From Candidatus Izemoplasma sp. (GTDB lineage Bacteria > Bacillota_I > Bacilli_A > Izemoplasmatales > Izemoplasmataceae): a DNA stretch of 64,000 nucleotides. The DNA is taken from contig JAXKVY010000001.1 of assembly GCA_036172455.1 (NCBI GenBank), positions 496,001 to 560,000 of the forward strand. The letters run 5' to 3'. A program made the position numbers and the translations under genes. This document shows positions 28,223 to 54,001 of the stretch, in pieces (position 1 is the stretch's first letter; each line of letters starts with the position of its first letter). A model generated the notes under the pieces. That model made no database searches, was not told the DNA's origin, and was given only the letters and a program-made list of their open reading frames with translations.

Positions 28223-28231
28223 TGATATAAT
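28223..28231 (+). promoter_or_regulatory. Possible internal promoter before the ABC/LRR block
   Basis: TGATATAAT is a perfect extended -10 in the 46-base gap after tsaB, 22 bases before the first ABC gene. The -35 is poor. If active, the block can be expressed apart from tsaEB. Confidence 0.5.
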
Positions 28232-28252: not shown

Positions 28253-29710
28253 TTGAGTATTCTTCATATAGAGAACCTTCATAAAACATATAAAAATGGC
28301 ACAACAAAGACACATGTTTTAAAAGGGATTGATTTAGATATTGAGGAAGGTAGTTTTGTTTCGATCTTAGGTAGAAGTGGATCGGGTAAAACGACTCTTT
28401 TGAATGTCATAAGTACCTTGTTAGATTTTGACAAGGGAACCATTATTATTGATGGAGAAGATGTTCAAAAAGCCAAAAACAAAAAACTTAATAGTATTCG
28501 AAATAATTATATTGGTTTTGTTTTTCAAGACTTTAATCTTGTGAATGAAATGAGTATTTTGGATAATGTGGCAACACCATTAATTTTAAATGGCGTTGCT
28601 TTTAGAAAAGCTAGGGAAAAAGCTAAAGAAGCGTTAGAAGATGTTGGATTAGGTCAATATACCAAAGTAAGACCACCAGAACTTTCAGGTGGGCAACAAC
28701 AACGTGTTGCGATTGCTCGTGCAATTGTAAATGATCAAAAAATACTGCTTTGTGATGAACCGACTGGCGCGTTGGATGATTACACAGCAACAGAGATACT
28801 AAACATATTAAAACGCTTATCAAAGACCAAGACAGTGATTATGGTTACGCATGATGAAGAGTTTGCTAAAAAATATAGTGATCGTCTCATTATGCTTGTG
28901 GATGGAAAAATTGTAAAAGATTATACAACTGAAGATGGAAAACTATTTAATGCAGAAATTGTCGAGGATAGAGCCTTGAGAATACGTTCTGCAGGTTTTT
29001 TAAATCTTTTGATGTACTCTTTTCTAAGTATGGATATTGATAAAAAGAAATTCGGGAAAACGTTTAAGACATTTAGCCTGTCATTAACGCTTTTCATTGT
29101 GATTAGTATTATCAATGAGAATCTAGATGTTTTTACAGAGCGTTATCTCGACTTTTTTGTGACCAGAGAGGTTGCAAATACTAATGTTTTGCTTGATTTT
29201 GTTTATCAGTTTTTTGAACAAAACGTTACGGTATTGGTCCAAACAATCTTGTTTATTTTAATTGGGTTTTGTGTAGTGTCATATCTATTTGTGTTCACCA
29301 TTAATATCATAAATAAGAAAAGGGAAATCGCTGTACTAAAAGCATTTGGGGCATCACAAGAAGCGATTGCTATTCTCTTTATGTTACGCCCGATCAAGTT
29401 TACATTAGCTATTTTTAAAGATACTTTAATCTATACTGTCATACTCATGCTTTTGGTGAACGGCATCTTAAACTTTAGGGCATTATTTTATACGGAGTAT
29501 CTTAGTTTTGTAGCAAATATATTTATTGTTTCATTTAATTTAATTAAAGCATTTGTCATTAATTCCACTACTCCAATAGACTTTCCATTGTTATTGAAAC
29601 ATATCTATCCGATATTTTTACTTGTTTTAGGATTATTTATGATAGGTAGTTTACTGCCTGCATATTATATTTCTAAAAGTGACACAATAAGGATGTTGGC
29701 AAAAGAATGA
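28253..29710 (+). CDS. ABC transporter ATPase-FtsX permease fusion 1 (short ectodomain)
   Basis: Residues 1-225 of 485 are a MacB/LolD-type ATPase: Walker A GRSGSGKTT near 40, signature LSGGQQQRV, Walker B ILLCDEP, and THD for the H-loop. The C-terminal half has four hydrophobic segments (about 274-292, 325-352, 385-408, 452-475). The FtsX-type cytoplasmic loop KKREIAVLKAFGAS follows the second. Only a short stretch lies between the first two helices, unlike the three following paralogues. I place the start at TTG 28253, because aggtggtgat is upstream. The stop overlaps the next gene by four bases. It is the first gene of the block; substrate unknown. Confidence 0.88.
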   Translation: MSILHIENLHKTYKNGTTKTHVLKGIDLDIEEGSFVSILGRSGSGKTTLLNVISTLLDFDKGTIIIDGEDVQKAKNKKLNSIRNNYIGFVFQDFNLVNEMSILDNVATPLILNGVAFRKAREKAKEALEDVGLGQYTKVRPPELSGGQQQRVAIARAIVNDQKILLCDEPTGALDDYTATEILNILKRLSKTKTVIMVTHDEEFAKKYSDRLIMLVDGKIVKDYTTEDGKLFNAEIVEDRALRIRSAGFLNLLMYSFLSMDIDKKKFGKTFKTFSLSLTLFIVISIINENLDVFTERYLDFFVTREVANTNVLLDFVYQFFEQNVTVLVQTILFILIGFCVVSYLFVFTINIINKKREIAVLKAFGASQEAIAILFMLRPIKFTLAIFKDTLIYTVILMLLVNGILNFRALFYTEYLSFVANIFIVSFNLIKAFVINSTTPIDFPLLLKHIYPIFLLVLGLFMIGSLLPAYYISKSDTIRMLAKE

Positions 29711-32700
29711 TACGTTTAAAAAACTTAACTAAAGTCTATGAGACAATTAATTACAACATTATTGCACTAAGTGATTTAACAATGACATTTGATATCGGAG
29801 AAGTTATTGTATTACTTGGTAAAAGCGGAAGTGGAAAAAGTACATTATTAAATATTATTGGCGGATTTGATCGAGATTATGTCGGAGAATGCCAGATTCT
29901 TGATACGGATTTAAAAAGCAAGAGTGAACGGGATATGGATACGGCCCGCAAACGACATATTGGTTTTGTTTTTCAGCAATACATTCTATTAAATAATCTT
30001 ACTGTCATTGAAAATGTTGAGTTAGCACTGAGAGTAAGTGGGGTTGTTAATGCGGGAAGCCGAAGACGGGCAGCAAAACATGCCTTAAAGCTTGTTGGGT
30101 TAGAGGAGCATATGAATAAGTTCCCTCATCAAATATCAGGAGGACAAAAACAACGCGTCGCAATTGCACGAGCTTTTGTTAAAAACCCAGACATTATTAT
30201 AGCGGATGAACCAACAGCGGCTTTAGACAGCCGAACATCTAAAGAGATTTTAGATTTACTTGCAGATTTATGTCGTAATAAGCTTTTAATTATTGCGACA
30301 CATAATAAATCCATTGTCAGGGATTATGCTTCACGTGTTATTGAATTAAGAAGTGGGTATGTTGTTAGAAATCAGTTAATTACAGACCCTTCTAAAGTTC
30401 ATGTTGATGAATTAGACTTAGTGATTGATAAAGAAATAGAAGATGATGATGAAAAGATTCAAAAACTTATCGAAGTAGAAAAAACTGTATCTGACGAGAA
30501 TAAATCAACTGTTTTAAAAGATATGGGGTTAAATATTGAGAACTTCAGACTAAATAATGATCAACCATTCAGTATTGATGAAGAACTAAAAAAGCGTATT
30601 ATTAAAGAGCATATGCACAATTCTAAGTTATCCACACGAATTTACCGGTTTTTACAAACATCTGATAAGTTTTATGGTAAGAAGTCATACGCTAATAAGG
30701 CGTTTTTCAGGAATATTGGCCTTCATTTATTTAGTGCTATTATCTTTGCGATATTTTTACTGACAATTGTATTTGGCCTCAATTTTGTTTCAGAAACATT
30801 TGGTGGATTTAATGAAAAAGCCTTATATAAGAGAAACATGAACAATAATAATCATGTCTATTTCGCCCCAAGTGAATTTACCATGGAAGATTATGAGACA
30901 ACACTCTATGATTCAATGGAACAACCATTCATCAATGATTTTTCACAAACTGAACTTAATCGCAATGATTTTTATGAGGTCCTTTTAAGTGATCCATATG
31001 TGGAATACCAATATTACCAAGATAAATTACTATATTTAGACCAAGAATTATCTCAATATGGTGCGATTAACCTGTACTATAACAATGCCAGTATTATTAT
31101 GCGAGAAGACAATCCTGACATCATTTTTGAACCACTACAATATCAGTATCAAAATATTGTTACATTTCCTGAACCATATGTATATGTTAGTAGCTTTATG
31201 GATACTGAGTTAGAAGAAAATAAGATATATCAGTTTAATTACTTATACGCTGAAAATAATGAAGCGATCTTAACAAACCACTTACTCGAAGGTGGAGAAT
31301 TACCAGATGAGGTAAATGAGATTGTTGTGCCTGTAGCGTATTTGTTTCAGTATGAGATTTTAAATCCAAGTGATTTCAAAGATGATTATGGGAATGATTT
31401 AAGAATGATACCATCCGAACGTATACAAGAAGCGTTCGATAACTTAAACCCAGAACAAAAAACGATTGATATCACTAAAACAACTGTGACTTTTAATGAT
31501 GCCACAGAAGGCTATAATGAGACATATACTACGTCTACAGAAACATTTAACATTGTTGGTTTAATTAATTTTGATGGAGATATCAATCCTGAATTGGCCT
31601 TACGGGAAGATTTATATATTCCAAATGCGGCATCTCAACATTTTAGTTTTATTGTCAGTAAAGCATCAGAAGAGCAAGTTAATTTTGACATTATTGATAA
31701 TGTCTCTGACAAGATGTTTACTAAAAGCATCCAATATGCCGAAATTAATAACGAAAACTATGAGCGCTACAATGTGAGCGATTTAGAAGAAATATTTGAA
31801 ACAGAATATCAAAACACGATGTATAGTGCATTCTCAGATAATTTCTCAGAGTGGATTGATACATTAAATTCTGCAACTGCATTGGTGAGTGCCTATGTGC
31901 AAGATGATTTAGCAGGATTAAACCCTGATGGTAGTTTTTTAGATACAGAAATTGACAATGCTATGTTCGAAGGACTAACTTACCGTGATTTGTTACGATA
32001 TTATATTGCGGATCATATGGCTGTCATCAGTGATGAAGCAGAATTTAACTATCTATGTCCTTCTTGTGATTTTGACAATCGTAGTATTGAGTCACTTTAT
32101 CTTGTAGCGATGGACGCCTACCCAAGAATCAAACAAAGTAGTGAATATGTCGATATGCTGGAACATTATGGCGATGTGAGAAGACTCACCTATCAAGAGA
32201 GTACAAATTATATTATGTATCAAGAATATGCACACCGTTTTAATAACCACTTCTATGAAACAGCACAGTCTCAAACATACGAACTCTCTTTAGTAAGTGC
32301 ATTCGAAGAAGAAAGAGGCAGTATTACATCGCTAGTATACGTCGTTTTACCACGTGTACTTATTGAAAATATGCCATTCTTGGATACGTTTGTATCAATG
32401 ATCGAACGTATGGAGGCCAATCAATCATTCCAAAACGTTATGCAACAAACTAACCTCGATTTATTAATCAGTAGTATCAGCACGAACGCGATAAGAAGTA
32501 TGGTAATGATTATCTTGTATATTGTTATCTATTTAGCACTGACATTATCGATTGTGTTCTTGAGTTTCGTACTCATTAATCTATATGGCAATATTTATGA
32601 GACTGCGACCCGCAAAAGGGTCCGGGAATTGGCTAGTTTACGTGTTTTAGGAACTAGTTATGATGATATACATGATATGGTTAAAATTGAAAATAAGCGA

Positions 32701-32982
32701 GTAGCATTATTTAGTTATCTCTTATTTGCACTCACGCTATTTGGTCTAAGTCGATTAGACTTATTTGTAGCAGCGCCAATAGAACATTTCTATATGCCAT
32801 TATTTGGCTTGTTCTTTGACTTTAATTTATATGATGTTTTTGTCATTAATCCTATGGTTATTGCATTTGCCACATTGTTGTTCTACTTCTTTATCTATCG
32901 CTTTATTATTCGTAAAGTTTCAACCAAAAAAATACAAAATATCGATACGATTCGAGCAATTAGGGATGGTGAGAACGTATGA
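29707..32982 (+). CDS. ABC transporter ATPase-FtsX permease fusion 2 (largest ectodomain)
   Basis: This 1091-residue protein starts with an intact ATPase ([29 protein letters not shown]). An acidic linker of about 100 residues follows. Helix one is near 338-362, an extracellular region of about 560 residues runs from 363 to 925, and three more helices lie near 932-958, 1000-1018 and 1048-1070. The loop RKRVRELASLRVLGTS after helix two is the FtsX/MacB signature. The ectodomain is rich in Tyr, Asp and Asn, has a CPSCDF pair, and is not a domain I recognise. Topology matches type VII (MacB-like) ABC proteins, which move a periplasmic or surface domain rather than carry a solute across the membrane. 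It overlaps its neighbours by 4 bases on both sides. Confidence 0.88.
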   Translation: MIRLKNLTKVYETINYNIIALSDLTMTFDIGEVIVLLGKSGSGKSTLLNIIGGFDRDYVGECQILDTDLKSKSERDMDTARKRHIGFVFQQYILLNNLTVIENVELALRVSGVVNAGSRRRAAKHALKLVGLEEHMNKFPHQISGGQKQRVAIARAFVKNPDIIIADEPTAALDSRTSKEILDLLADLCRNKLLIIATHNKSIVRDYASRVIELRSGYVVRNQLITDPSKVHVDELDLVIDKEIEDDDEKIQKLIEVEKTVSDENKSTVLKDMGLNIENFRLNNDQPFSIDEELKKRIIKEHMHNSKLSTRIYRFLQTSDKFYGKKSYANKAFFRNIGLHLFSAIIFAIFLLTIVFGLNFVSETFGGFNEKALYKRNMNNNNHVYFAPSEFTMEDYETTLYDSMEQPFINDFSQTELNRNDFYEVLLSDPYVEYQYYQDKLLYLDQELSQYGAINLYYNNASIIMREDNPDIIFEPLQYQYQNIVTFPEPYVYVSSFMDTELEENKIYQFNYLYAENNEAILTNHLLEGGELPDEVNEIVVPVAYLFQYEILNPSDFKDDYGNDLRMIPSERIQEAFDNLNPEQKTIDITKTTVTFNDATEGYNETYTTSTETFNIVGLINFDGDINPELALREDLYIPNAASQHFSFIVSKASEEQVNFDIIDNVSDKMFTKSIQYAEINNENYERYNVSDLEEIFETEYQNTMYSAFSDNFSEWIDTLNSATALVSAYVQDDLAGLNPDGSFLDTEIDNAMFEGLTYRDLLRYYIADHMAVISDEAEFNYLCPSCDFDNRSIESLYLVAMDAYPRIKQSSEYVDMLEHYGDVRRLTYQESTNYIMYQEYAHRFNNHFYETAQSQTYELSLVSAFEEERGSITSLVYVVLPRVLIENMPFLDTFVSMIERMEANQSFQNVMQQTNLDLLISSISTNAIRSMVMIILYIVIYLALTLSIVFLSFVLINLYGNIYETATRKRVRELASLRVLGTSYDDIHDMVKIENKRVALFSYLLFALTLFGLSRLDLFVAAPIEHFYMPLFGLFFDFNLYDVFVINPMVIAFATLLFYFFIYRFIIRKVSTKKIQNIDTIRAIRDGENV

Positions 32983-35225
32983 TAGAAATCCGCGACCTAG
33001 AAAAGATATATTATACAAAAGAACGTGATTATATTGCCTTAAAAGATGTTAACTTAACGTTTGAACCAGGTGAATTTATCGCTGTTTTAGGCGAGAGTGG
33101 TAGTGGCAAAACAACATTTCTAAATATGATCAGTGGTGTTGATAAAAAAACTGATGGTGAGATCTTATTTAATGAGGAAAATACCAATAAGTGGAAAGAT
33201 AAAAAATGGCGTGAGATCAGAAACACAGAGATTGGCTTCATTTTCCAACGGTTTAACTTGATTGAACATTTAACAGTGATGGAAAATGTAACACTACCGC
33301 TTATTTTAACCGGGAGCGACGATAAAGTCGCAAAAGAGATTGCGAGTAGATTATTAAAAGAAGTCGGACTAGAAAGCACAGAGGAGAAACTAGCAAGTGA
33401 GTTATCTGGTGGACAACGGCAACGTGTTGCTATTGCAAGAACGATTATTATCAATCCAACAGTTATTTTAGCTGATGAACCTACGGGGGCATTAGATAGC
33501 ACCACAGCTAAAGAAATTATGGCTCTTTTACAACACTTTGCACCAGGTAGAATTATCATCATGGTTACCCATGATGAAGATTTAGCTTATGACAATGCCA
33601 CGCGTGTTGTCAGACTTCATGATGGCAAAGTCATTAGTGATGAGATTGTTAAAGAAAAGAACGCAAGTAAGCGACTTACCACAGATTCGTTATTGTCTTA
33701 TGAGACGAAAATCACACGACGAAAACGTAAGCATTTAATGAAACAATTTCCTGAGTTAGAGGGGCAACTCCAAGTAGGCGACACAACGAAAGTGCCACTA
33801 CATCGGAAATACATTGCGAATAATCCTGTATTTACACGCAAAATTGCACGAGAGAACTACCGCCAAAAACACGCGATTAATCGACGTATTTTATGGAGTT
33901 TTGTGATTGGCATTAGTTTGTTACTTATTGTTAATATTGTGATGAAAAATATTACAGCTTATAATTTTCATTTATTTGACATTAATAACAACTATGAACA
34001 GTATTTAGTCACTGATATTGGCCCATATGATGAGAATACAACGACAGAAGATGCGCATATTCAAGCATTGATGTCCTCGCTTCAAGCTGAAGAGAATGTA
34101 GATAATGTTTATATATATTATGAACATTATGTTCAGGAACTCTACATCGCAACGACGAATAATTTTTATAGTTCAGATGCTGGAGAACGGACCTATAACA
34201 CGGGGGTTTATAGCCCGCGTATCACAACTTTAGGATCAACGACAATACAAAAAGAAGACTTTTATTTGAGTGATCAAATCTATGTTGGAGATTTTCCTGA
34301 CCCAGAGGCAGATATACCTGAAGTATTGATTAGTAGTGAGTATCTATTATCACAATTTCTTGGGATTAGTTTAAATGAAAGTTTAAACGACGGAATTAAT
34401 ACATCAAGTATACGGCTTGAAGGGTTTATTGATAAGACATTATACATCTGTGGTGAAACCGTTAAATTAGGGGATACAGAACCGAATGTGACGATTGTGA
34501 AGGATTCCTGTTTCGCCTATACCATATCCGGTATTTTAAATAGTTATTATCAAGGTATTAATTATGTGGGTAATATCTATATGTATAATGATGGCTTTGA
34601 AGATTATGTTACATATTTGAAAGAAGATAAAGGATTTACCCGTGCAGATGAATATTATGATAAGTACATTGCACTCACCCCTGTGAACGTCAAAGAGCCA
34701 TTAGATATTACACAATTAAATACAACATATGATATTTCAGTTGAAAACTCAGAATTTAGACAATATCAAGAAACACGGGATTTAGAGCTTATGTTAGAGT
34801 ATATGTATTATGCCATTTTTGCGAGCTTATTTGTGATAAGTGGTACAGTCGCAGTAAATATTGTGATTTCTAGTATTCATGAACGGATACGGGAAATCGG
34901 GATTTATTCAAGTATTGGCGTTAGTAAGAAAAGTATTCGAAATATGTTTGTATTTGAAACAGTAGAAACAGCTATTAGAATCTTATTTATGACAGGATTA
35001 TTATACGGACTTATAGTGTTTTCTTTCCGTTATTTTTACCGATTCGTTGTAGTGGATTTAACAACACTAGAACCTTTATTTGGCTATAACCCTGTGTTTA
35101 GCTATGAAACAACATTTAGTATAGGTGTCATTATTGGCGCAGTCGTATTTTTATTTGTTAGTGTGTTAGTCCCATCCTTTAAAGCGGCTAACATGCGTGC
35201 TATTGATGCCTTGAGAAGTGGGTGA
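32979..35225 (+). CDS. ABC transporter ATPase-FtsX permease fusion 3
   Basis: The 748-residue protein has a complete ATPase ([31 protein letters not shown]) and a basic cytoplasmic linker. The first helix is near residue 302. An extracellular domain of about 280 residues contains two separated Cys (near YICGETV and DSCFAY). Three C-terminal helices follow, with the FtsX loop HERIREIGIYSSIGVS between helices two and three. The start overlaps the end of gene 2 by four bases and gene 4 starts six bases after its stop. It probably pairs with another of the four fusions, since each carries one ATPase and one permease unit. Confidence 0.88.
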   Translation: MIEIRDLEKIYYTKERDYIALKDVNLTFEPGEFIAVLGESGSGKTTFLNMISGVDKKTDGEILFNEENTNKWKDKKWREIRNTEIGFIFQRFNLIEHLTVMENVTLPLILTGSDDKVAKEIASRLLKEVGLESTEEKLASELSGGQRQRVAIARTIIINPTVILADEPTGALDSTTAKEIMALLQHFAPGRIIIMVTHDEDLAYDNATRVVRLHDGKVISDEIVKEKNASKRLTTDSLLSYETKITRRKRKHLMKQFPELEGQLQVGDTTKVPLHRKYIANNPVFTRKIARENYRQKHAINRRILWSFVIGISLLLIVNIVMKNITAYNFHLFDINNNYEQYLVTDIGPYDENTTTEDAHIQALMSSLQAEENVDNVYIYYEHYVQELYIATTNNFYSSDAGERTYNTGVYSPRITTLGSTTIQKEDFYLSDQIYVGDFPDPEADIPEVLISSEYLLSQFLGISLNESLNDGINTSSIRLEGFIDKTLYICGETVKLGDTEPNVTIVKDSCFAYTISGILNSYYQGINYVGNIYMYNDGFEDYVTYLKEDKGFTRADEYYDKYIALTPVNVKEPLDITQLNTTYDISVENSEFRQYQETRDLELMLEYMYYAIFASLFVISGTVAVNIVISSIHERIREIGIYSSIGVSKKSIRNMFVFETVETAIRILFMTGLLYGLIVFSFRYFYRFVVVDLTTLEPLFGYNPVFSYETTFSIGVIIGAVVFLFVSVLVPSFKAANMRAIDALRSG

Positions 35226-35231
35226 TTAGGT

Positions 35232-37970
35232 ATGAGCCGAGGCGATATTATTTTACGTTTAGTAGGTGTTAAACGGACCTACCATACTAAAGCAAACCGT
35301 GAGATTGTTGCGCTTAATGGCGTAACAACATCTTTTAAGCGTGGAGAATTTGTTGGAGTCGTAGGGAAAAGTGGTAGTGGAAAAAGTACGTTAATCAATA
35401 TCCTTGGTGGATTGGACGCCCCAGATGCTGGTGATTATTTTCTAGAAGGAAATAACATTACAGCGATTAATGAAGGACAATGGGATGCGATAAGAAATGA
35501 GAAAATTGGATTTATTTTTCAAGAGTATCATTTGCTTGAATATTTAAGTGTTTATAAAAATGTAGAGATCGCATTAAAATATCAAAAAGGCAATAGTCGA
35601 AAAGAAAAAGATGCCAAAGTTAAAGATATCTTAAACAAGGTCGGATTAATTAATCATATTCATAAATTACCCAGTCAACTATCAGGTGGACAACGGCAAC
35701 GTGTGGCGATTGCCCGGGCATTAGTAAAAGATCCTGCGATTATTTTAGCTGATGAACCTACCGGAGCACTAGACTATAATACTAGTCAGACAATCATTGA
35801 TTTAATCAAAGGGTTAAGTAAAGAACGATTAGTGATTGTTGTTACGCATGATCGCGGTATTGCCAATGAACATGCCACACGGATTATCGAGTTATCAGAA
35901 GGACAGTTTACAAATGATTTGATTAAACAAGATATTCCTCAAACCTACCAAAATACATATCGTAAAACAGAACCGACAGATTTATCTGTATGGGATAAAT
36001 TTGAGTTAACATTTCAAAAAATTCGCTCACGATTTTTTAGAACATTATTTACGGCATTATCACTTGCGTTAGCTTTTAGTTTTACAATTCTGTTTAATGG
36101 AATCGAGCGAGGCGTAACTGAAGCATATGATGCCTATTATGAAGCGTTAAATAAAGCGAACAGCTATGCTTTTAGTTTAGTACCTGAAGAACCTGTCATT
36201 GATGATGCAGACTACATGTTAGCGCAAGAAGACCTTGTGGCGACATATGAAGGGTATTTTGAAGATAAAGATAGCGAGTTAGTCAGTAGCTATTCGACAG
36301 ACGTAATGATTTCCCCTATTACTAGTGGAGTTGAGCGTGTTGTCGATGATCCAAACCATCCAGATTTACTCGCAGATCATAAATTACGACTCTTTCAAAG
36401 TGAACGCATTAATGCCTATAGTTATGATGACTTATTTATTGGGAATAGTTATTATCCTGAACCCAATGAGAATGAAATCATGGTTACGAGTCGTTTTTAT
36501 CGGGATGTCATGCAGCTATCAGATAATATCGTTAATCTTTCAGGGTATGTCAATGATGAGATAGAAGTGCCTTTATATAGTTTTACCATTCAAGAGGGGA
36601 TTTTTGGCGTCTCTGCGTACTTAGATACTTTAGCTGAGAATGAGAACCAAGCAATCGTTGAAGGCAATGACAATGATGATACATTAGTCCCAATTCGTTA
36701 TTTATCCTTCAATTTACCGTTATACTGTTATCATTACGATAGCTTAGGTGAATATTATCAAGATAAATGTGAAGCCCGTATTCGTGACCAAAAGGCCACA
36801 GACTATGTTAACTCTGTAGATGAGTTTATTGAGTATATGGATGATTTTAAGTCACAAGTAAATCAAATTGCACCAAATTATTTTGATTTACTTTTACGTA
36901 GTAATGCCATTTATTATATGGTAGATGAACGCGATGCTTTCTTAGAACCCGGAGAACCACGCTATATTGAACGGGTTTATCAAGCTGTGTATGATGAAAC
37001 AACCAATCCATTCCCCCAAGTGGATATTCATGATGCCGTGTTTAAAAGCCAAGAAACAACTATCACGATGACAATCACGGCCATTATTGATAATGAAAAT
37101 GAATCAGTGATCTATATCGATAAAGATACCTATGAAAACACATTATTCCAAAAACAAGCGTCATTAGAGTATGTTAATGGGTATTTTAGTGTCAATTTAG
37201 ATAGTGGTATCTTAGAAAGCAGTTTATTAGAGAACATTAATGAAGAAGATATCTTAGAAATTGTCACAATTGAGAACTTTCATGACCCAATTAACGACTT
37301 TGCCCAAGGCTCAGGCAACAATTATGCTGATACGTTTAATCTGATTCGTAAAGAACCAATAGAACAAGGGGATGAATGTGCTATTTATACCGTCGATAAT
37401 GTCTTGAGACAAAGCAATATTGAATTGTCACCAATTGTCGATGATATCTTTACAGTGACAGATTATTCTAACTGTAAAGTCAATAGTGAGGCGTATCACT
37501 ATCTAACGAGTATTCGAACACTCTTTGGTGTATTCTTTAATGCCCTTTTAATCATCAGTATTGTCTTTTTTAACATCTTACTGAAAGTTATTTTAGGCGA
37601 ACGTATTAAAGAAATTGGTATTTATAGGAGTGTCGGTTCTACAGCCAAAGATATTAAAATGCTTTTCTTTATTGAAATTGTCACAGAAGTGATTATGGCA
37701 ATTATTATGAGTGTAGTCATTATTTATTATGCAAATATGCTAATTAATGCCGTCTTTATTGATGTTATTAATCAAGGAACTGGTGTCATTAGTTTTGCAG
37801 GTATGAAACTTAGTATTGGAAACAATCGTATGTTAACGGATATTTCATTCTTTAACTTATTATTTTATAGTTTCATCGTATTTGCTTTACTCGGTTTCTT
37901 AAGTTATCGAAATGTAACAAAACTTGCCAATACGAAACCAATCGATATTATTCGGGAGGTGCAATCATGA
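35232..37970 (+). CDS. ABC transporter ATPase-FtsX permease fusion 4
   Basis: The 912-residue protein repeats the same plan: ATPase ([31 protein letters not shown]), helix one near 268-288, an extracellular domain of about 470 residues, and helices near 762-785, 811-835 and 875-900. The loop [16 protein letters not shown] is present after helix two. The ectodomain differs in sequence from those of fusions 2 and 3 and contains four Cys (YCYHYD, DKCEAR, DECAIY, SNCKVN). RBS gggtgattagg precedes ATG 35232. The stop overlaps the start of the giant lipoprotein gene (ATGA), which ties the transporter and the surface protein together. Confidence 0.88.
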
Positions 37971-40900
37971 GCTACTTGAAACAATTACCAAAAATACTTT
38001 TAGTGATGATGACTGTCATCATTCTTTCAAGTTGCAGAGAAACTGTGGAGAATACCCATTTACCTGAATATTGTCGTACGTATGCGGGGTTTGCGGATGT
38101 TGCGAGTAGAGATTTATATGCGTTAATTGCGACATCCACACCTGAACGCGAAACCATCAACGAAGATAACTTTACTCAAATCATTAACATGACTGAGCTT
38201 GTGTTTGAAGAAAACACACCAGATCGTAATATTGATCTCGGTGGAATCCAATGTTTTCAAAACCTTACATCTTTGACATTAATCGGGCAAGGCTTCAAAG
38301 ATATTAGCGAGATTAGTGCCTTACAAAATATCCAATCACTAGAGTTACGCAACACACAAGTTGTGAGTATTGATAGCTTTAAAAATCTTAGTAAAATTAG
38401 CGAGTTAATCTTAAATAATAATGCTGCTTTACAGAGCGTTGAAGGCGTCGAAGAAATGACAAAACTTACATCCCTTGATCTCAGTGATAACGGAATTGTC
38501 AATATTGAGGGATTAGACAATCTAATCAACTTAGAGTCGTTAATATTGAGAAATAACGATATTTATGAATTGCCAGCCATTACACAACTCTATAAACTAG
38601 AAACATTGGATGTCTCAAACAACAATATCCAACAATTTGGCGATAGCTTAACGGGATTGTCTAACTTACGTGAATTCAACGCAGAAAACAATAATATTTG
38701 CGACTTAGAGCCATTGGGGGCTATGGATAGTCTAAGAGTCTTAAATCTTGCTAATAATGATTTAGGATGCGATTTAGACGGTTTAGGAGACGGTCCAAAC
38801 TTCAGTAGCTTACAAAATGCAACCGAGTTAGAAGAACTGTATCTCAATGATAATAATCTGACCTCTATTGCGGATTTAAATGATAAAGTGTTGCCTATTA
38901 CAACACTCCATTTACATAATAATCAATTATCAGATATTACACCTTTATCACAGTTTACAAGTGTGACAACATTAACGCTTTACAACAATAATATTAACAA
39001 TATCGGAATTCTTTCTGGTATGACAGGACTAACGGAGATAGATTTATCCGATAATAATCTCACTGATTTTACAGAACTTCTTGATATCCCAAACCTAGAG
39101 AGGGTATATCTTAATGGTAATGAAATTACCCATATTCCAGATCTTTCACCTTGGTCTAATTTGAGTGTGTTAGATTTACACAGTAATTTTAATGATTTAG
39201 GTCCTACATTAACCGATACATCAGGTGTCTATGGTCATCAATCATTGGAATCGCTTATTTTATATGATAATGGACTGGATACCTTAATTGGTATCAGCGA
39301 TATACCTAACCTTGATCATCTTTTAATTGATACACCTGATAGTGAGTCGTTACCAGACGATTTTACAGAGACACACCCTAATATCATTACCCGTATAGAA
39401 AATAGTTTTAATAATCTACCAGAACTAGATATGCAAGCGCTAGATGAGTCTGGCGAAATTATTGAAGGCTACTTTACCTTTGGTTTTCAAACAGGGATTG
39501 GCTTAGAGATTATTAACTCATTTAAAGAGGTCCCTAACATCACTGTAATGGATTTATCAAATATGAATATTGATCATATTGATGAACAATCAATCGTGAT
39601 ACCTACCTTAGAAACACTTCTCGTTAATGAGAATAACTTAACAGATATACGGTTTATTTATGATAATCCTGAGCTTATCAGTATTGATGCATCAAACAAC
39701 CAAATAACGAATCTAACAGAGGTAACACAAGCGGATTCACTCAGCCATTTAATCTATTTTAGTGCGGCCGATAATCCATTGAATGATTTAGATGGAGCAT
39801 TTGAAAACTTAGAAAACTTAGAAATATTAGACTTAAACAACACACCACTTTCAACAATTAATCAAAGTTTTAATAACTTAAGTGACTTAACTGCGCTTAC
39901 GGTCTCTTTAGATCAAACAACTACAATTACAGATGCATTTAATGACATATTCACGGTCTATTTTGATAGTAACGTCATTACAATTGAAACGGGTATAATA
40001 GAGTCCATTTCTAATAGTTTTAATAATGGACAATATGACTACATTTTGATTGATAACAACACACCAAGTACACAAACAACAGATATTAGTGGATCATTTA
40101 ATGATCTGTCCTTTAATAATGACTTAGGGCTTCAAATTACAGATAGTCATTTTGATAGTATGACAGATAGTTTCAATAGATTGAATCTTACACAACTTAT
40201 CTTACGTAATAATGATACAAGCACCATCACCTCAAGTTTCACTGACACACAGATTGAACAAACACTAGATTTATCTCAAAACCACTTAAGCAATATACCA
40301 AGTATTAATACAGTGCTCAGTGTTGATACGATCGACATAAGTCAAAATCGCTTAACAACGCTTACGGATTTTGATAGTATACCTGATTTAACAACGCTTG
40401 ATATATCTACTCAGTATAATGAAGAAACATTACAACATACATTAACAATCATTGATGGGATTAATAATTTAGTAAGTCTTACTGCATTAAGCTATAATGA
40501 TTTGGCTATTACAGAAATTACGGGGTTACAAAATACAGCATTATCAAGTTTTCAACTAAACTATGCCAATAATAATGCGACACCAATTATTACTATTGGT
40601 GACAACGCATTTGATGGGAGTCCAATAACGACACTAGATTTGGGGAATCACCAAATTACGTCGTCAGCCTTTTTAAGTAATTTGACACATTTAGAGTTTT
40701 TAACCATTGGCCTTGACTATGTAGATTACTCTGCATTTTCAGGATTAGCTATGGCATCAACCTTACAATCACTAGTCTTACAAAATACACAAACCGTGTC
40801 TGATTTACAACCGTTTGAAGTGTATGATCAACTTATTGGGTTAACATATGATAATGACGCAACAATTATTGAAAACCTAAGTGGCTTAGATAATCTAGGC

Positions 40901-43900
40901 ATTATTACCCTTGAAAACAGTAATAACATTACAACTTTTACAGACAGTTTTAATGCGTTACCACAAGTTAATCTAACGACAGATTATCTAACAACATACC
41001 CAAATCTAACGAGCATTACACGCTCATTTGATGCCTATCAATCAACGCCAGTAGAGATTCCCAACACAATAACGATCGTGGATGGGTTTAATCAAGCTAG
41101 AGACGTGATATTACGTGCACAAGGGGATCCATCAAGTGTTTTATTTGATACCGACTCATTTGATAGTATGGTTAATCTAACCATTGAAGAAGCTGCTTAT
41201 AACTCGTATAGTTTCTTAGATAATTATACAACTTTAGATCATCTAACGATTAGCCTTTTATCAGCCAACATGACAGATTTATCCAATTCTACAATCACCG
41301 CATTAACGATTGAAGACTTAGATAACACTATTACTGAGCTAACGACTGAATTAAATATGAGCGCAACATTGACACTAACAGGGGATGTCGCCAACACACT
41401 TACTTTAACCACAAATTACCAGAATTATCAATTGACAATGCCAACGACAACACTCCTCTTATCATCAACAGCAACGACGCATGTTTTAAATGGAGATGTT
41501 GCCGATTTAACGATTAACAATAGTGCGTTAACGGCCTTAACATTTGATCAATTTACATCAGTATCCAGTACGTTCAATGCCGATAATTTAACCACGATTA
41601 ATACATTAGATGATACGTATAACAACGCGACATCACTGATTGTAAATAGTGGGATAGATACGATAGATTACACACTACAAGCAACGAATTTAACCGTTGT
41701 TAATAATGCACTTACTAATGGAATAGTAAGCAACGTGGCGTATAATACTACAATTGAGACAAACCAATCTTCGTTAACCTTAAATCTATTAACAGATACA
41801 TTAGTACTCGATAATGATACTCTTACGAATGGGACTTTTACTGGTACTGTGAATACAATAACGGTATCCTCGACTAATCTACAAAATCTTGTATTAAATG
41901 ACACAAGTATAGCGCAATTAGAAGTGACATCAAGTCATTCAGATATAACCATTTCAGGGACCAATGTATCTAATATGCAGCTGAGTAATGATCAATTAAC
42001 CAACCTCTCACTTGACTTACCAGGGAGTACAGTAGTGATTAACAGTAATACATCATCAGCGGTAAGTATGTCATTAAATAGTAACGACCTGACACTTGCT
42101 CTTTTACAAGCCCCTACTGTAGAACTATTAAGTACATCAGTCATCGATACCTTAACCGTAAATGGGGATCATGTCGCGACCCTGACATTACATGATGCGT
42201 CAATCTCAACGTTAAATTATACAACGCTTGAATCAGCACTTACTGTCACTGGGAGTGCGGTATCAACCGCCAGTATTATAGCTCAACAAGCAAGTACATT
42301 AACCGTTACGTTGCCATCTAGTACATTGAATATTACTGATAGTAACAATATTGCTACGATGACACTAGATGCCAACACAGTGAATATGACAGATACTGAG
42401 TTAACCGCATTAACACTGAATAGCACCAGTAGGATCAATACATTACTATCGTTAATATCGCCATCACTGTCCTCGCTAGACGCGGTTAATATTCAGGTTC
42501 CATCATTAACTATTGATAGTAATGAAACAACATTAGATATTGCTGCGAATAATGCTATAAGCACAGTCTTAACAGCGCCTAATATCACAAGTTTGATACT
42601 TGATGTTGGCACTAATCAAGTAACGATTGATGCTGACAGTACGACAAATCTGTCTTTACAAGCTTTAGCTAATCAATTAACACTAAATTCAAGTGTATCT
42701 ACCCTCACCTTAGACAGTGCATCAAGTATTAATGAGTTTATTATTGATAGCACATCTTTATCTAATATTAGTGCCTTTAATGCGAATATCGATACGATAT
42801 CAACAAGTGTAACATCCCCATCATTAACGATGTCAGGGACCAATATTACCACGGCTGATATTAGCGGAGAAATGACCTCGTTTACAGGCACCTTAGATCA
42901 AACAAATTTAACAGTCACGTCTGTTGCTCAATCACCGTTTGATGTTACTACTGATACCGAAAACATTGTAATCAGTGCTTTAGATGACATTACCTTGCAC
43001 AGTGCTGTTTTAAATAGTGCACAGGTCACATCACCAACAGGGGACCTCACGTTAGATATTACGACACCAGCTGTTACCTTTAATTTAACAGCTGATGTTG
43101 ATACTGCGACATTTAATACAAGCCATATCAGTGGTGTAACATTTGGAGTAGATACTACCATCAATACACTAAATCTTACGAACACGAATATTGATACCTT
43201 ATTTACAGGGGATGCTGTAACAACGCTTAATGTGACAACGAATCAAACAAGTTTTACTGTTGGTGGAACAATAGAATCTATGACGTTTACATCACCTGAG
43301 TTATCGACTTTAGATGTCAATAGCGATGATTTATCAGCTAATTTATCTATCACCGCAGAAACGACGTCAATGACACTTACTGGAACATTGCCTACCGTTA
43401 GTGTTATCAATGATACGATGACAACATTAGATATGACAGGCATGTTAACAAATGATTTAACCGTAGATAGTGCATCATTACAAACGTTAGATACAGGCTC
43501 AGTAGCGTTAAATAACCTTGAGTTAATTCTAAATCAAGATAATTATGATATTACAACAGCTTCGACAACAATCGCACTAACAGGTAGTAGTTTAGATACA
43601 GGCTCACTGACAGTAACTTCAGAGTCCCCAAGTGTAACAACTAATATAAAATCATTGAATATATCAAGTAATGTTATGACATCACTTAATATCACGGCAC
43701 CGACTACTGACTTGAATGTGACAGGTAATCTGATTGCTTCGCTAATAGGAGAGGTCTCTACGCTAATTATTGATACACCTGTGAGTCTGACATCAGCGAT
43801 TATTACGCCATCCATAACACATCTTACAGGTGATACGTTAACCATTCAAAATGGAGAAGATGTAGACACACTAGAAACAGACGCCTCAACCATTACTGTA

Positions 43901-44935
43901 TCGGCTAGTTCCAACACCAGTATCACCTTAATTGGAAATAGTGGCTCAAATACAAGTATTACCGCGTCTCAAGAGATTACGACACTTGATGTATCTTTAC
44001 CAAATGCAGGTGAGACAACAATCAATGCATCTAACGCTGAGGTCACTATGACAGGATCAAATATGACAAGTGTGGCAGGTGCTATGGCGAATTTATCGGT
44101 TATTGACGCAGATAACACATTATTGACTGTCAATGCAGCCGTTACAGATATTATCATTTCAGATAATGACATATTAAGTGCCGTTACGCTCACAAATAAC
44201 GCGAGTAATGTAGATATCTCATCAACGACGTTAGATACCCTAACAATTAGTACAACATCTTTAACGTTGACAATTAATGGGAGCACTACAACACTAAATA
44301 TTACAGGCACTAATCTAGATACATTTAATACAGAAAATGTCAGCGCAACAACATTGAGTGTGCTTGATACAACGTATATAGATTTAAGTTTCATGAGTAC
44401 AACCGTGTTAAACGCAGTGAGCACACTGACAGTTAATACATTAACAGTTGCTAATATTGAGAACATTGTTACAACACTAGATGGCTTAACCGTTGAGTTA
44501 ATTAGTCCAATTACACAAGCTGACGTCAATAATTATTATTATCAAACAGAGTACAATCGTCTTTGGGGGATTGAAAATAATGATAACGTGCGTTATGATA
44601 ATTTCTATCAAGAAGCTGTCGATAACGCCTATCAAGTTATGGTGAGTAATCAATATCTTGATCATATTGCAGAAGCTACGTTAAGAAATCATATCCAAAA
44701 TGGGTATCTTACTGTTGATGAATATTATCAAAGCTATTTAGACAGTGAAGGACTACCCACTTCCCCTGATGAAGAGACCATAAAAGCGAGTATTCAAAGT
44801 ACATTAGACGATGAGGCATTGACGATTACTGAGGCTGAGATTAATGCTCAAGTAGAGATATCTATTGTGACAGATGCAGAAACGTATCGTGATACTCAAG
44901 AAGTTAATCAGACCTTCACAATAACACTCAATTAG
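37967..44935 (+). CDS. Giant lipoprotein with leucine-rich repeats and a Thr/Ser/Asn-rich solenoid-like region
   Basis: This 2322-residue protein has a lipoprotein signal peptide with lipobox LSSC and Cys 23 as the lipid-bearing residue, so it is probably anchored on the outer face of the membrane. Residues from about 85 to 465 are canonical 22-residue LRRs (for example LTSLDLSDNGIVNIEGLDN). From about 478 to 1090 the repeats degenerate, with a recurring SFN motif (ENSFNNLPEL, QSFNNLSDL, GSFNDLSF). Residues 1090-2180 are built of short beta-type repeats of roughly 10-11 residues, rich in T, S, N, L, D; I count one Lys and one Arg and no Cys or Trp there. A Tyr- and Glu-rich tail of about 135 residues closes it. 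No sortase motif or membrane anchor is seen at the C-terminus. Probably an adhesin or surface scaffold; the function is unknown. Confidence 0.9.
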   Translation: MSYLKQLPKILLVMMTVIILSSCRETVENTHLPEYCRTYAGFADVASRDLYALIATSTPERETINEDNFTQIINMTELVFEENTPDRNIDLGGIQCFQNLTSLTLIGQGFKDISEISALQNIQSLELRNTQVVSIDSFKNLSKISELILNNNAALQSVEGVEEMTKLTSLDLSDNGIVNIEGLDNLINLESLILRNNDIYELPAITQLYKLETLDVSNNNIQQFGDSLTGLSNLREFNAENNNICDLEPLGAMDSLRVLNLANNDLGCDLDGLGDGPNFSSLQNATELEELYLNDNNLTSIADLNDKVLPITTLHLHNNQLSDITPLSQFTSVTTLTLYNNNINNIGILSGMTGLTEIDLSDNNLTDFTELLDIPNLERVYLNGNEITHIPDLSPWSNLSVLDLHSNFNDLGPTLTDTSGVYGHQSLESLILYDNGLDTLIGISDIPNLDHLLIDTPDSESLPDDFTETHPNIITRIENSFNNLPELDMQALDESGEIIEGYFTFGFQTGIGLEIINSFKEVPNITVMDLSNMNIDHIDEQSIVIPTLETLLVNENNLTDIRFIYDNPELISIDASNNQITNLTEVTQADSLSHLIYFSAADNPLNDLDGAFENLENLEILDLNNTPLSTINQSFNNLSDLTALTVSLDQTTTITDAFNDIFTVYFDSNVITIETGIIESISNSFNNGQYDYILIDNNTPSTQTTDISGSFNDLSFNNDLGLQITDSHFDSMTDSFNRLNLTQLILRNNDTSTITSSFTDTQIEQTLDLSQNHLSNIPSINTVLSVDTIDISQNRLTTLTDFDSIPDLTTLDISTQYNEETLQHTLTIIDGINNLVSLTALSYNDLAITEITGLQNTALSSFQLNYANNNATPIITIGDNAFDGSPITTLDLGNHQITSSAFLSNLTHLEFLTIGLDYVDYSAFSGLAMASTLQSLVLQNTQTVSDLQPFEVYDQLIGLTYDNDATIIENLSGLDNLGIITLENSNNITTFTDSFNALPQVNLTTDYLTTYPNLTSITRSFDAYQSTPVEIPNTITIVDGFNQARDVILRAQGDPSSVLFDTDSFDSMVNLTIEEAAYNSYSFLDNYTTLDHLTISLLSANMTDLSNSTITALTIEDLDNTITELTTELNMSATLTLTGDVANTLTLTTNYQNYQLTMPTTTLLLSSTATTHVLNGDVADLTINNSALTALTFDQFTSVSSTFNADNLTTINTLDDTYNNATSLIVNSGIDTIDYTLQATNLTVVNNALTNGIVSNVAYNTTIETNQSSLTLNLLTDTLVLDNDTLTNGTFTGTVNTITVSSTNLQNLVLNDTSIAQLEVTSSHSDITISGTNVSNMQLSNDQLTNLSLDLPGSTVVINSNTSSAVSMSLNSNDLTLALLQAPTVELLSTSVIDTLTVNGDHVATLTLHDASISTLNYTTLESALTVTGSAVSTASIIAQQASTLTVTLPSSTLNITDSNNIATMTLDANTVNMTDTELTALTLNSTSRINTLLSLISPSLSSLDAVNIQVPSLTIDSNETTLDIAANNAISTVLTAPNITSLILDVGTNQVTIDADSTTNLSLQALANQLTLNSSVSTLTLDSASSINEFIIDSTSLSNISAFNANIDTISTSVTSPSLTMSGTNITTADISGEMTSFTGTLDQTNLTVTSVAQSPFDVTTDTENIVISALDDITLHSAVLNSAQVTSPTGDLTLDITTPAVTFNLTADVDTATFNTSHISGVTFGVDTTINTLNLTNTNIDTLFTGDAVTTLNVTTNQTSFTVGGTIESMTFTSPELSTLDVNSDDLSANLSITAETTSMTLTGTLPTVSVINDTMTTLDMTGMLTNDLTVDSASLQTLDTGSVALNNLELILNQDNYDITTASTTIALTGSSLDTGSLTVTSESPSVTTNIKSLNISSNVMTSLNITAPTTDLNVTGNLIASLIGEVSTLIIDTPVSLTSAIITPSITHLTGDTLTIQNGEDVDTLETDASTITVSASSNTSITLIGNSGSNTSITASQEITTLDVSLPNAGETTINASNAEVTMTGSNMTSVAGAMANLSVIDADNTLLTVNAAVTDIIISDNDILSAVTLTNNASNVDISSTTLDTLTISTTSLTLTINGSTTTLNITGTNLDTFNTENVSATTLSVLDTTYIDLSFMSTTVLNAVSTLTVNTLTVANIENIVTTLDGLTVELISPITQADVNNYYYQTEYNRLWGIENNDNVRYDNFYQEAVDNAYQVMVSNQYLDHIAEATLRNHIQNGYLTVDEYYQSYLDSEGLPTSPDEETIKASIQSTLDDEALTITEAEINAQVEISIVTDAETYRDTQEVNQTFTITLN

Positions 44936-44945
44936 GAGAGATAAC

Positions 44946-45800
44946 ATGAGACGATTCCTGATGATTACATTATCCCTATTTTTCCTCACAGGTTGTGGGG
45001 TCTTTGATCGTGGCAATTATGAAAAAGATCGTGAGGGGTATGTGATCAATGATGAACTCATTGTCAAATACCATACCAACGCTGTTGGTGAAATTGATTT
45101 ATTTATCTTAGATGAGCGATTACCGTTCTTTGAGGCTCTTAAGCGGATTGGTTTTAACGCAGAAGAACTCACGGACCATCCCACGGTATCAAATTATATA
45201 ACACCTGAGGTCTTAGATGATGCCTGTGGGATTACTTCAGACAGTGCAATTCCTAGGTTTTTGAACATTAACGACCAACATTACTTTTATCATATACGGG
45301 ATAATGGGTATTGTACCTATGATGAATATGTCTTCCACGAGACCGGTTTTGATTCAGGCAATGTCGATATTGAGACGACATCCCCTATTGAGAACATTGA
45401 TGTGTTGCGCTTTAATCGAACGAATTTCTTAATTAATCCGTTCATCGATATTGTTTCAATTGAAGAAATCACATATAATGCAGAAGATTCTATTTGGCAA
45501 AGAGCGTTCGTCAATGTTTTACCGATGAGTTTAAGCCAGGCAGGGAATGTCTTTGAATCAAACCAACAATACTTGGCTCAACTAAGTATCATTGAGCAGT
45601 ATGTTTTGACAAATCAATCCATTAATTTACTCATCTTAAAAGAAGATTTTGATTCGACAGAATCAACGATGATTTGGTCTGAAGAAACCGTTAACTATCT
45701 TGGTCGTAACCATGATATTATCCGTCATGTCGATACAGAAAATATGGGCGAGATCATTGCTTTAATCAATGATGTCTTAAGTCGATTGGGGATGTTTTAA
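44946..45800 (+). CDS. Small lipoprotein 1 of the ABC/LRR block
   Basis: The 284-residue product begins MRRFLMITLSLFFLTGCG, a clear lipoprotein signal with Cys 17 as the first mature residue. The mature part has two separated Cys (DDACGI and NGYCTY) and no family I recognise. It resembles the next gene in length, lipobox, cysteine pair spacing and the order of hydrophobic strands, so the two are probably tandem duplicates. It lies 10 bases after the giant gene with aggag upstream, and is followed directly by its paralogue. It may be an accessory subunit of the ABC/giant-lipoprotein apparatus. Confidence 0.82.
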   Translation: MRRFLMITLSLFFLTGCGVFDRGNYEKDREGYVINDELIVKYHTNAVGEIDLFILDERLPFFEALKRIGFNAEELTDHPTVSNYITPEVLDDACGITSDSAIPRFLNINDQHYFYHIRDNGYCTYDEYVFHETGFDSGNVDIETTSPIENIDVLRFNRTNFLINPFIDIVSIEEITYNAEDSIWQRAFVNVLPMSLSQAGNVFESNQQYLAQLSIIEQYVLTNQSINLLILKEDFDSTESTMIWSEETVNYLGRNHDIIRHVDTENMGEIIALINDVLSRLGMF

Positions 45801-46658
45801 ATGAGACGTTTACTATTAATGAGTGTTGTTTTGTTATTGACGTTATTCCTTGTTGGATGCCAAAATGATACAACTGTAGAATATAATTTTAAAGCACGTA
45901 GAAATAGTTATTATATTGATTCGACTAAGCAAGTTCTAATCACCTATGAGACAGACAATAATGGGAAAATGATTGACTTAGCCATTAATCGGCTACTTAC
46001 CGTCGAAGAATTATTATTAATGGACCCAAGCATTGATTATGATATGATCGTTGAAGGTTTTGACGGAGATATCTTTGTGGAACCATCAAATACCTGTACA
46101 ACAGTTTCTAATACGTTGTTAGTCCCGATTAATTTAGAAGTTGGAAATACACGCTACAAGTATAACGAGAACGCCTGTCAATATCAGATTGTGGATAGTT
46201 ATAATCAATATAAATCAGGATATGATGAAGAATACTATTTATCGGATACGATTGCGGTGAGTCCAACTACTCCAATCTCTATCATCATTTATGATGAAGA
46301 TGCGGTTGTCCGATTTGTAGAAGTCAAAACACTGTATAATTCAGTTAAAGATTTAGGACTCCATACCTTACGGTACAATGAAGATAACAATGCGTATTTA
46401 AATACGCCTTATCATTATTATCATGACATAAAGATTTATGAACAGCTATATTTGAAATATCAATTAAACGAAACAACAATTGATGAAATTAGTGGCTATT
46501 CAACAGATATTAACATTCTTGATATTGGTAGTTTGGACGAAGTGAATCCTCTGATTACCAATTTTAGTGAACGTTTTAGTTTAGAAATTAATGCCATGAA
46601 TGAATTAGAAGCCGAGATAGGTGAGAATTTACAGTCTGATGAGGAAGAAAGCGAATGA
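45801..46658 (+). CDS. Small lipoprotein 2 of the ABC/LRR block
   Basis: The 285-residue product has a lipoprotein signal with lipobox LVGC and Cys 20 as the lipidated residue. The mature part has Cys near SNTCTT and ENACQY, spaced as in the preceding lipoprotein. Shared features include a YYID/YVIN segment after the signal, a TSPI/TTPI motif and a repeated T-Y-N segment. It ends in an acidic tail (LQSDEEESE). The ATG follows the preceding TAA without a gap, and the stop overlaps rimI by four bases. Confidence 0.82.
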   Translation: MRRLLLMSVVLLLTLFLVGCQNDTTVEYNFKARRNSYYIDSTKQVLITYETDNNGKMIDLAINRLLTVEELLLMDPSIDYDMIVEGFDGDIFVEPSNTCTTVSNTLLVPINLEVGNTRYKYNENACQYQIVDSYNQYKSGYDEEYYLSDTIAVSPTTPISIIIYDEDAVVRFVEVKTLYNSVKDLGLHTLRYNEDNNAYLNTPYHYYHDIKIYEQLYLKYQLNETTIDEISGYSTDINILDIGSLDEVNPLITNFSERFSLEINAMNELEAEIGENLQSDEEESE

Positions 46659-47098
46659 TTTTGTATCAAAGAGCTAAATTAGAAGATTGTACGTATATTT
46701 TTCAGTGTGAACAAGAGATATTTCATCAAGGATTATCATATGATACATTAAAAGAAGACGTATTATATCATTCGCAAAGTGAATATATTGTTGCAAAGGA
46801 TGAACGAAAGCCAATTGGCTATATTGGGGCACTTGTTGTTGGTCATCAAGTCGATATCATCAACCTTTATGTTGAACCAGATTATCGTCGTCAAGGGGTT
46901 GCAACCCAGTTGTTTAAAACATTATTGAACAGTGAGAAAGAGATTTCTTTGACGGATATTACATTGGATGTAAAAGAAAATAATCACGTAGCAATTAGCT
47001 TATATAAAAAAATAGGATTTAGCGTTATAGGTAAACGAAAGCAATATTATCAAGATGGATCAAATGCATTAGTAATGAAACATACTAGGAGTGAGTAA
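46655..47098 (+). CDS. rimI: Ribosomal-protein-alanine N-acetyltransferase RimI-like
   Basis: This 147-residue GNAT protein has the acetyl-CoA site [19 protein letters not shown] (the RRQGxA pattern), then [29 protein letters not shown], the standard C-terminal half. In Bacillota rimI is usually next to tsaB and tsaD, and here it lies directly before tsaD. The known substrate in E. coli is ribosomal protein S18; that is assumed, not shown, for this organism. The start overlaps the preceding lipoprotein stop. Confidence 0.9.
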
Positions 47099-52509: not shown

Positions 52510-53535
52510 ATGACATCTGGTGAAGAATTAATGTTGCTACTAGAATTAAACAACTATGACATAACAAAATACCGGATTAAAAAGTTTCTTGAATTTGATC
52601 AGGATTTTCATGACGTCTCCTTGGTGAATCAACGGACGCTAAAAGACTTGTTAGTAACCTATTATACTTATGATTCAAGCAAAGACGCCCGGTACAAAAA
52701 TCCTTTGGCATATCAATCTTCATGGCCTATGCAGATTGATACAATCGATAAGTTTTATGTATCACATGTTGATTTAGATAAGCCGATGACATTAAAAGCT
52801 TTTATCGAACTGGATACCTTTGAACCTTTAACAAAAGAAAGTATTTTATATGATATATTTGATCGTTGGATAGAAGCGTACCGAAACGCATCAATCCAAC
52901 AAATGGAAGATTTAGAAACCTTAGTTGAACTGTTACCCAAAAAAATTAAAAAGCAACGGAAACCAAGTTTTTTAGCCTTTATATTGACGGTTTTACTTGG
53001 ATTATTTCTTGCTTTATTGTATCAATCACCCGAATCATTAACACCGGCTATGTTTCCTTTTCTAGAAGGGATGGTGAGGCGTTTGAATGGGTTGTTATAC
53101 GAGCAACCATGGTATAGTTTATTTGGTGTTGTTACAATCTTTTTACTGTTTACACATGCAATTGCCAATGTCTTTTTTAAACGCTTTATCAAAGATGTTA
53201 GGGGCGAGAAAAGTAAATATGCCAAACGCATGTTTACAAAATGGAAAGATGATATGGAAAACGCGCGTTTAAAACAATCGGGTATCCTAGAAGATTATGT
53301 AGAAACTGTTATGAAAGACCCAAAACAATCAGGACTAGATATGGCTGTCTTAGCCGGGCCTGAGAAACTATTAGATAAATTTAAGAATTATGTGCGCTCA
53401 ATTAATAACCGATTCGATAAAATGACAAAATATCATAAGCGGTTTATGCGCTATTTACGCATCTTACTATTTTTAAGTTTACTTGCGACAATAGGGTTTA
53501 TCGCAATTGGGTTAACCACACAAGGAGGGGCATAA
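52510..53535 (+). CDS. Membrane protein of the CvpA-like operon, unknown function
   Basis: The 341-residue protein has a soluble N-terminal part of about 155 residues, then hydrophobic helices near 156-175, 200-225 and 316-335. A basic helical linker (KRFIKDVRGEKSKYAKRMFTK and the following coil) separates the last two. No known family is evident. The ribosome site aggagg precedes it, and the next gene starts one base after the stop. Its neighbours suggest a membrane complex with the CvpA-like protein and the Lys-rich protein. Confidence 0.72.
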   Translation: MTSGEELMLLLELNNYDITKYRIKKFLEFDQDFHDVSLVNQRTLKDLLVTYYTYDSSKDARYKNPLAYQSSWPMQIDTIDKFYVSHVDLDKPMTLKAFIELDTFEPLTKESILYDIFDRWIEAYRNASIQQMEDLETLVELLPKKIKKQRKPSFLAFILTVLLGLFLALLYQSPESLTPAMFPFLEGMVRRLNGLLYEQPWYSLFGVVTIFLLFTHAIANVFFKRFIKDVRGEKSKYAKRMFTKWKDDMENARLKQSGILEDYVETVMKDPKQSGLDMAVLAGPEKLLDKFKNYVRSINNRFDKMTKYHKRFMRYLRILLFLSLLATIGFIAIGLTTQGGA

Positions 53536-53536
53536 G

Positions 53537-54001
53537 ATGGCTAAGAAAAAACAAGAATTAAAGTTCAAGTGGGCCGATAGAGATGCTTCGTCGTGTAAAG
53601 TTGACACAAAGACGACACAGGTTATCCCCGATATTGATAGTTTTTTTGATACGGATGAGTCATTAAAAAAAGATTCTATAAAAACCAAGACAAAGCAAAA
53701 GAAAAAAAAGAAGAAAAAACAAAAGACAAAAGACAGTAAGACACCATCTAATATGATGGAAATAGCCGCAAAGGCTACAACATCACAAAAGCGCAAGTAT
53801 CGTATTAAGAAGAAAAAATTTAAGTCGATTGATGACATTATAAGTTATATGAATGATCATTATTTAGAAATTGATAATATCGCAGAAACGTTATTAGAAG
53901 ATTCAACTTTCTTTGGATTTCTTAAGAAAAAGAACGCCCATCAGTATGAAGAAAGTCTTGCGTTATTAAACGTATTAAAAGAAAAAATAGAGAAAAAGTA
54001 A
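53537..54001 (+). CDS. Lys-rich cytoplasmic protein, unknown function
   Basis: The 154-residue protein is strongly basic. A tract of about 25 residues (near 49-73) is almost only Lys with some Gln and Thr, encoded by A-rich DNA at 53690-53750. The C-terminal 60 residues look helical and more ordered (SIDDIISYMNDHYLEIDNIAETLL, then a FGFLKKKNAHQYEESL segment). Such tails bind acidic partners such as nucleic acid, phospholipid head groups or acidic proteins. No homologue is recognised. The ribosome site aaggagg is strong, and it is the last gene of its unit. Confidence 0.72.
   Translation: MAKKKQELKFKWADRDASSCKVDTKTTQVIPDIDSFFDTDESLKKDSIKTKTKQKKKKKKKQKTKDSKTPSNMMEIAAKATTSQKRKYRIKKKKFKSIDDIISYMNDHYLEIDNIAETLLEDSTFFGFLKKKNAHQYEESLALLNVLKEKIEKK

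Follow-up and report, generated by a model that had tools for sequence, protein, structure and literature searches.

The window analysed here, a stretch of 64,000 nucleotides from Candidatus Izemoplasma sp., a member of the wall-less Bacillota family Candidatus Izemoplasmataceae, carries the t6A genes tsaE, tsaB, rimI and tsaD, all of which pass their NCBIfam cut-offs. Between tsaB and rimI (28253-46658, forward strand) lie seven genes: four encode proteins of the ABC/FtsX type (ABC1 to ABC4), one a 2,322-aa LRR lipoprotein (LRRg), and two small, paralogous lipoproteins (lp1 and lp2). ABC1 starts 46 bp after tsaB, the intergenic distances within the block are, in order, -4, -4, +6, -4, +10 and 0, and lp2 and rimI share 4 bases; tsaE and tsaB also overlap. 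The seven genes, the gaps of -4 to +10 and the lp2-rimI overlap given in an earlier note on this DNA were thus confirmed from the ORFs and their junctions. We place the start codon of ABC1 at TTG 28253, which is preceded by GGTGGTGA, and not at the mechanical GTG 28241. The base composition of the block is that of its flanks. A large, unrelated module is here stably carried within a housekeeping tRNA-modification operon. The rimI gene of the window's genus (46655-47098) is strongly diverged, with ~30% identity to that of other family members, while tsaD mostly exceeds 60-70%.

ABC1 (28253-29710, 485 aa) is an ABC ATPase fused to an FtsX-like membrane domain with a small ectodomain, and ABC2 (29707-32982) combines an ABC ATPase with membrane helices and a ~560-aa ectodomain that carries a conserved CPxC. 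ABC3 (32979-35225) and ABC4 (35232-37970) are ABC-FtsX proteins whose ectodomains span ~290 and ~480 aa, the latter with four invariant Cys. ABC_tran is clear in all four (E 1e-32 or better), each has its Walker A, signature, Walker B and H-loop, and the ABC domains resemble LolD/MacB/FtsE. The description of all four as ABC-FtsX fusions stood for the ATPase part; Pfam FtsX scores above its cut-off in ABC3 and ABC4, is sub-threshold in ABC1 and was not found in ABC2. The hydropathy layout of ABC2 does fit, with one hydrophobic stretch, ~560 aa outside and then more hydrophobic stretches, and each ABC protein has about four to six such stretches. Mean pairwise identity of ABC1 among relatives is 0.77, and the ABC2 ectodomain has no sequence match in the PDB. 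Paired, nearly invariant Cys residues occur in the ectodomains of ABC2, ABC3, ABC4, lp1, lp2, LRRg and a further protein, CvpE, described below, and this pairing suggests that they form disulfides. Another adjacent ABC-FtsX pair lies elsewhere in the same genome, G000 (L121:8632-13291, C4), beside genes for an OLD-like AAA ATPase and a helicase.

LRRg (37967-44935) displays both the lipobox, with its Cys at position 23, and the LRR repeats (LRR_4, E 2e-35) of bacterial LRR surface lipoproteins. Cys23 is conserved in 7/7 sequences, all copies whose N-terminus can be read have the lipobox, and conservation is highest in the first ~400 residues and lower in the rod. For the second half of the protein, AlphaFold predicts a beta-solenoid of ~720 residues (rod model pLDDT 82), a weak stretch and then a helical domain at ~2145-2314; from the residues per coil, the modelled rod would be an estimated ~45 nm long. 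The two small lipoproteins, lp1 (44946-45800) and lp2 (45801-46658), are paralogues (E 4e-8), and the predicted fold of lp1 (pLDDT 71) has no match in the PDB.

A candidate promoter of the block, with the extended -10 element TGATATAAT, lies at 28223-28231 on the forward strand, ~21 bp 5' of the ABC1 start. Between 26001 and 52500, this strand has TGNTATAAT at two sites only, 28223 in front of ABC1 and 27141 in front of tsaE. Over the whole window the motif shows no significant excess above chance, so that what counts is its position alone. In relatives, the tsaB-ABC1 interval likewise has A+T-rich sequence that resembles a promoter. These features suggest that the block has its own transcription start, which may also drive rimI-tsaD, and co-transcription of the block with the t6A genes is likely here. 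A strict dependence of the t6A genes on the block is weakened by block-free relatives, which keep tsaB, rimI and tsaD contiguous, and by an lp2-rimI spacing that ranges from -4 to +26.

Sixty-one genomes of the order were searched with LRRg, lp1, lp2, tsaB and tsaD. Ten carry the block, all of them members of the family and representing five genera, and it always lies between tsaB and rimI in the same gene order as far as the contigs reach. In G000, G009, G011, G013, G025 and G031, tsaB and tsaD are on one contig, separated by ~18.7-18.9 kb that contain the block; in G001, G002, G014 and G029 the block meets contig ends, and all ends that can be read agree with this order (ABC3 of G029 is broken in the assembly). 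The remaining genomes with tsaB and tsaD on a shared contig have the two within ~1.3 kb. A search of named genomes gave nine loci with lp1-lp2-rimI-tsaD, some in genomes that are also among the 61, the named carriers being Candidatus Izimaplasma/Izemoplasma genomes, including HR2 and Izemoplasma acidinucleici.

On an rpoB tree, the carriers with usable rpoB fall within one subclade of 13 genomes, and the block-free G003, G008, G023 and G035 nest among them. The tree requires five changes, best read from these sequences as one gain and about four losses. A tree of seven concatenated system proteins (ABC1-4, lp1, lp2 and CvpE) from nine genomes has 6/6 splits in common with the rpoB tree, and inheritance of the block thus looks vertical. 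In comparisons of G000 and G002, dN is low and dS saturated, which makes their ratios rough. The 135-bp tsaB-rimI interval of G035 (L046, minus strand) holds two pieces of lp2 that lie in different frames. One resembles residues 173-190 of G009 lp2 (72% identical) and the other the acidic C-terminus of that protein; 500 dinucleotide shuffles gave no score as high for either piece. Judged by these fragments, the interval is a deletion scar of a lost block. No scar was detectable between tsaB and rimI in G003, G008 or G023. On the congruent trees and the G035 scar, the recent insertion that had been suggested was rejected, and the block appears old in one subclade, vertically inherited and lost several times. 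A mobile element was likewise rejected: the tested ends carry no repeats, the composition is flank-like, and neither lp1 patterns in viral contigs nor the ABC2 ectodomain in plasmids and phages gave a match.

Other members of the family have a single gene of ~250 aa between tsaB and rimI (L047:2647-3387 in G005, L048:5398-6156 and L051:5020-5838); in G005 this gene matches TMEM164 (PF14808, E 5e-28). Insertions may thus recur at the tsaB-rimI junction.

We searched 392 genomes of the phylum with an ABC2 ectodomain profile, our wider searches sampling ~400 genomes each. Outside the family it matched G067 and G089, both from a different family within the class; G534 gave one more match, which is weak and probably due to chance. 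Both genomes have ABC1-ABC2-ABC3-ABC4 in the order of the window, and each protein matches its positional counterpart far better than the other ABCs. In G067 a 1,649-aa LRR lipoprotein follows ABC4, and the G089 contig ends in ABC4. Neither locus has a recognisable t6A gene in its vicinity, lp1 and lp2 were not found there, and a counterpart of the LRRg C-terminal domain was not detectable in G067. Looking for the seven proteins away from tsaB, as the earlier note had proposed, recovered ABC1-4 (G067 and G089) and LRRg (G067), with lp1 and lp2 missing. This co-occurrence of ABC1-4 and a giant lipoprotein gene in the same order, in another family and away from tsaB, upholds the view that they form one system, a multi-gene envelope system present in two families of one class, most of whose parts lack a named family.

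The three genes 5' of ABC1 in this distant family match three genes that lie 3' of tsaD in the window. These are CvpE (50163-52499), with a CvpA-like membrane part and a ~600-aa ectodomain, g52510 (52510-53535), a 341-aa membrane protein whose distant counterpart stands after the CvpE-like gene and before ABC1, and g53537 (53537-54001), a small, Lys-rich and probably cytoplasmic protein of 154 aa whose counterpart stands just before ABC1, all on the forward strand. The respective hhalign E-values are 8e-7, 5e-7 and 8e-6, against 0.12 or worse for non-counterpart pairs; E-values of single profile pairs are rough, but the contrast is clear. As a separate line of evidence, the small one of these three genes in G089 matches g53537 in HMMER (E 1e-3). 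The limits of 28253-46658 are hence too narrow, and on these homologies the system is larger than first noted and lies on both sides of rimI-tsaD, being split here around rimI, tsaD and the gene at 48189. That last gene (48189-50072) encodes a 627-aa secreted or membrane-anchored protein with no Pfam or NCBIfam match and is found 3' of tsaD in most family genomes examined, with or without the block; some loci have an extra gene of ~211 aa, distantly related to it, between it and tsaD (L035:12843-13478, L060:13201-13836). CvpE co-occurs with the block in 10/10 carrier genomes, and block-free genomes gave no full-length match to it. The genes g52510 and g53537 are retained in the block-free G008, G023 and G035 and so can exist without the block; they were not found at the locus in the examined genomes outside the subclade.

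Gene content and order thus establish, at the level of sequence, a conserved set of ABC1-4, the giant LRR lipoprotein, CvpE and two further genes that is inherited as a unit, to which lp1 and lp2 have been added in the window's family. We read this set as one ATP-driven surface machine, in which type VII (MacB/LolCDE-like) ABC motors would act on a co-encoded, giant rod-shaped lipoprotein, and give this reading a probability of about 0.5. In type VII ABC systems, ATP powers a motion that is passed on to partners outside the cytoplasm, and a partner protein defines each system (PMC12646458). Here, the four ABC/FtsX-type half-transporters would pair into two type VII transporters, which would move no substrate through the membrane and would transfer movement powered by ATP to their ectodomains, which are large and probably disulfide-bonded. 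The ectodomains could act on the membrane-proximal LRR part of LRRg, with its estimated rod of ~45 nm; lp1, lp2 and CvpE would be accessory anchors, and the small cytoplasmic protein would be an adaptor. The likeliest use would be to display, pull on or let go of a rod at the surface to which an extracellular ligand or surface binds, and the location beside tsaB would be an old accident, by now stable. Several points weigh against the machine reading: the FtsX match is sub-threshold in ABC1 and absent in ABC2, lp1 and lp2 were not seen in the distant family, lp1 lacks a PDB fold match, g52510 and g53537 are kept without the block, and about four losses are needed. A search of the literature found no description of the gene set. 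The single giant lipoprotein partner and the natural losses in sister genomes make the role of the system testable.

Among the alternatives, a Lol-like extraction, in which the ABCs would pull lp1, lp2, LRRg or lipids of the membrane out of the outer leaflet, to be released or passed on, is in our view possible and clearly less probable than the surface machine. It accords with the similarity of the ABC domains to LolD/MacB/FtsE, the three lipoproteins encoded in the operon and the recurrence of lipid-like substrates among type VII systems (PMC12646458); however, no LolA-like carrier gene was recognised in the cluster, the lipobox of LRRg is retained wherever it can be read, and four dedicated ABCs with very large ectodomains are unlike Lol. 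It seems distinctly unlikely that the block is a module of the BceAB kind, which would sense or remove a membrane-active compound with the LRR protein as decoy or receptor. Type VII-like ABCs with large ectodomains and a patchy loss, as in a conditional defence, would suit such a module, but each protein has only about four to six hydrophobic stretches, against the ten helices of BceAB and YbbAP permeases (PMC12646458), no two-component genes were seen beside the block, and the giant rod would be left unexplained. That a generic efflux ABC cluster and an unrelated surface LRR protein are chance neighbours in a housekeeping operon, as the other ABC-FtsX fusions in the same genome might allow, is strongly disfavoured by the order conserved in 10 genomes, the fact that a second family has them together at another site, and the congruence of the block and rpoB trees.

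Two further functions were rejected. A defence system was discarded because PADLOC matches only the generic ATPase part, and FtsEX-type wall remodelling because transpeptidases are missing: a search of 37 genomes, G000 among them, found no penicillin-binding transpeptidase (PF00905), with 10/14 control genomes positive, and a cultured member of the group is reported to lack a cell wall (PMC8397711).

A more specific form of the machine reading, in which type VII motors actively move the ~45-nm rod as a mechanical device on a wall-less cell, is speculative and, we judge, improbable. If true, it would mean that adhesion, capture of a ligand or movement is powered by ATP in a way that no described system shows, by a machine built of motors which elsewhere do mechanical work outside the membrane. 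Mycoplasma mobile gliding relies on ATP-driven surface legs of ~50 nm on a wall-less cell (PMC4937208); the likeness is one of description, and the motor there is an F1-like ATPase. A cultured member of the window's family has been described as non-motile (PMC8397711).

With internalins and other bacterial LRR surface proteins, LRRg shares its N-proximal LRR part, which matches internalin A (E 2e-38), but it is an N-terminal lipoprotein, runs into a long beta-solenoid and is co-encoded with ABC motors. The best PDB fold match of its second half is the beta-solenoid of the S-layer protein RsaA, which is weak and not significant (E 0.005), and no S-layer secretion genes were seen. The hydrolases that FtsEX controls act on the peptidoglycan of a walled cell, whereas no PF00905 transpeptidase was found in the host here; LolCDE hands lipoproteins to LolA and the outer membrane; MacAB-TolC requires the adaptor MacA and the outer-membrane TolC, neither recognised in the cluster; and BceAB joins its permease to a sensor kinase, while no kinase or regulator stands among the annotated neighbours here. 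With the type VII systems as a whole (the MacB superfamily: FtsEX, LolCDE, MacB, YbbAP, BceAB), the block shares an ABC ATPase, a membrane part that scores as FtsX in ABC3 and ABC4, an extracytoplasmic domain and dedicated partner proteins encoded alongside. It differs from them in the ABC2 ectodomain of ~560 aa without a PDB sequence match, in having four ATPase-permease fusions in one operon, in its giant lipoprotein partner and in its wall-less host.
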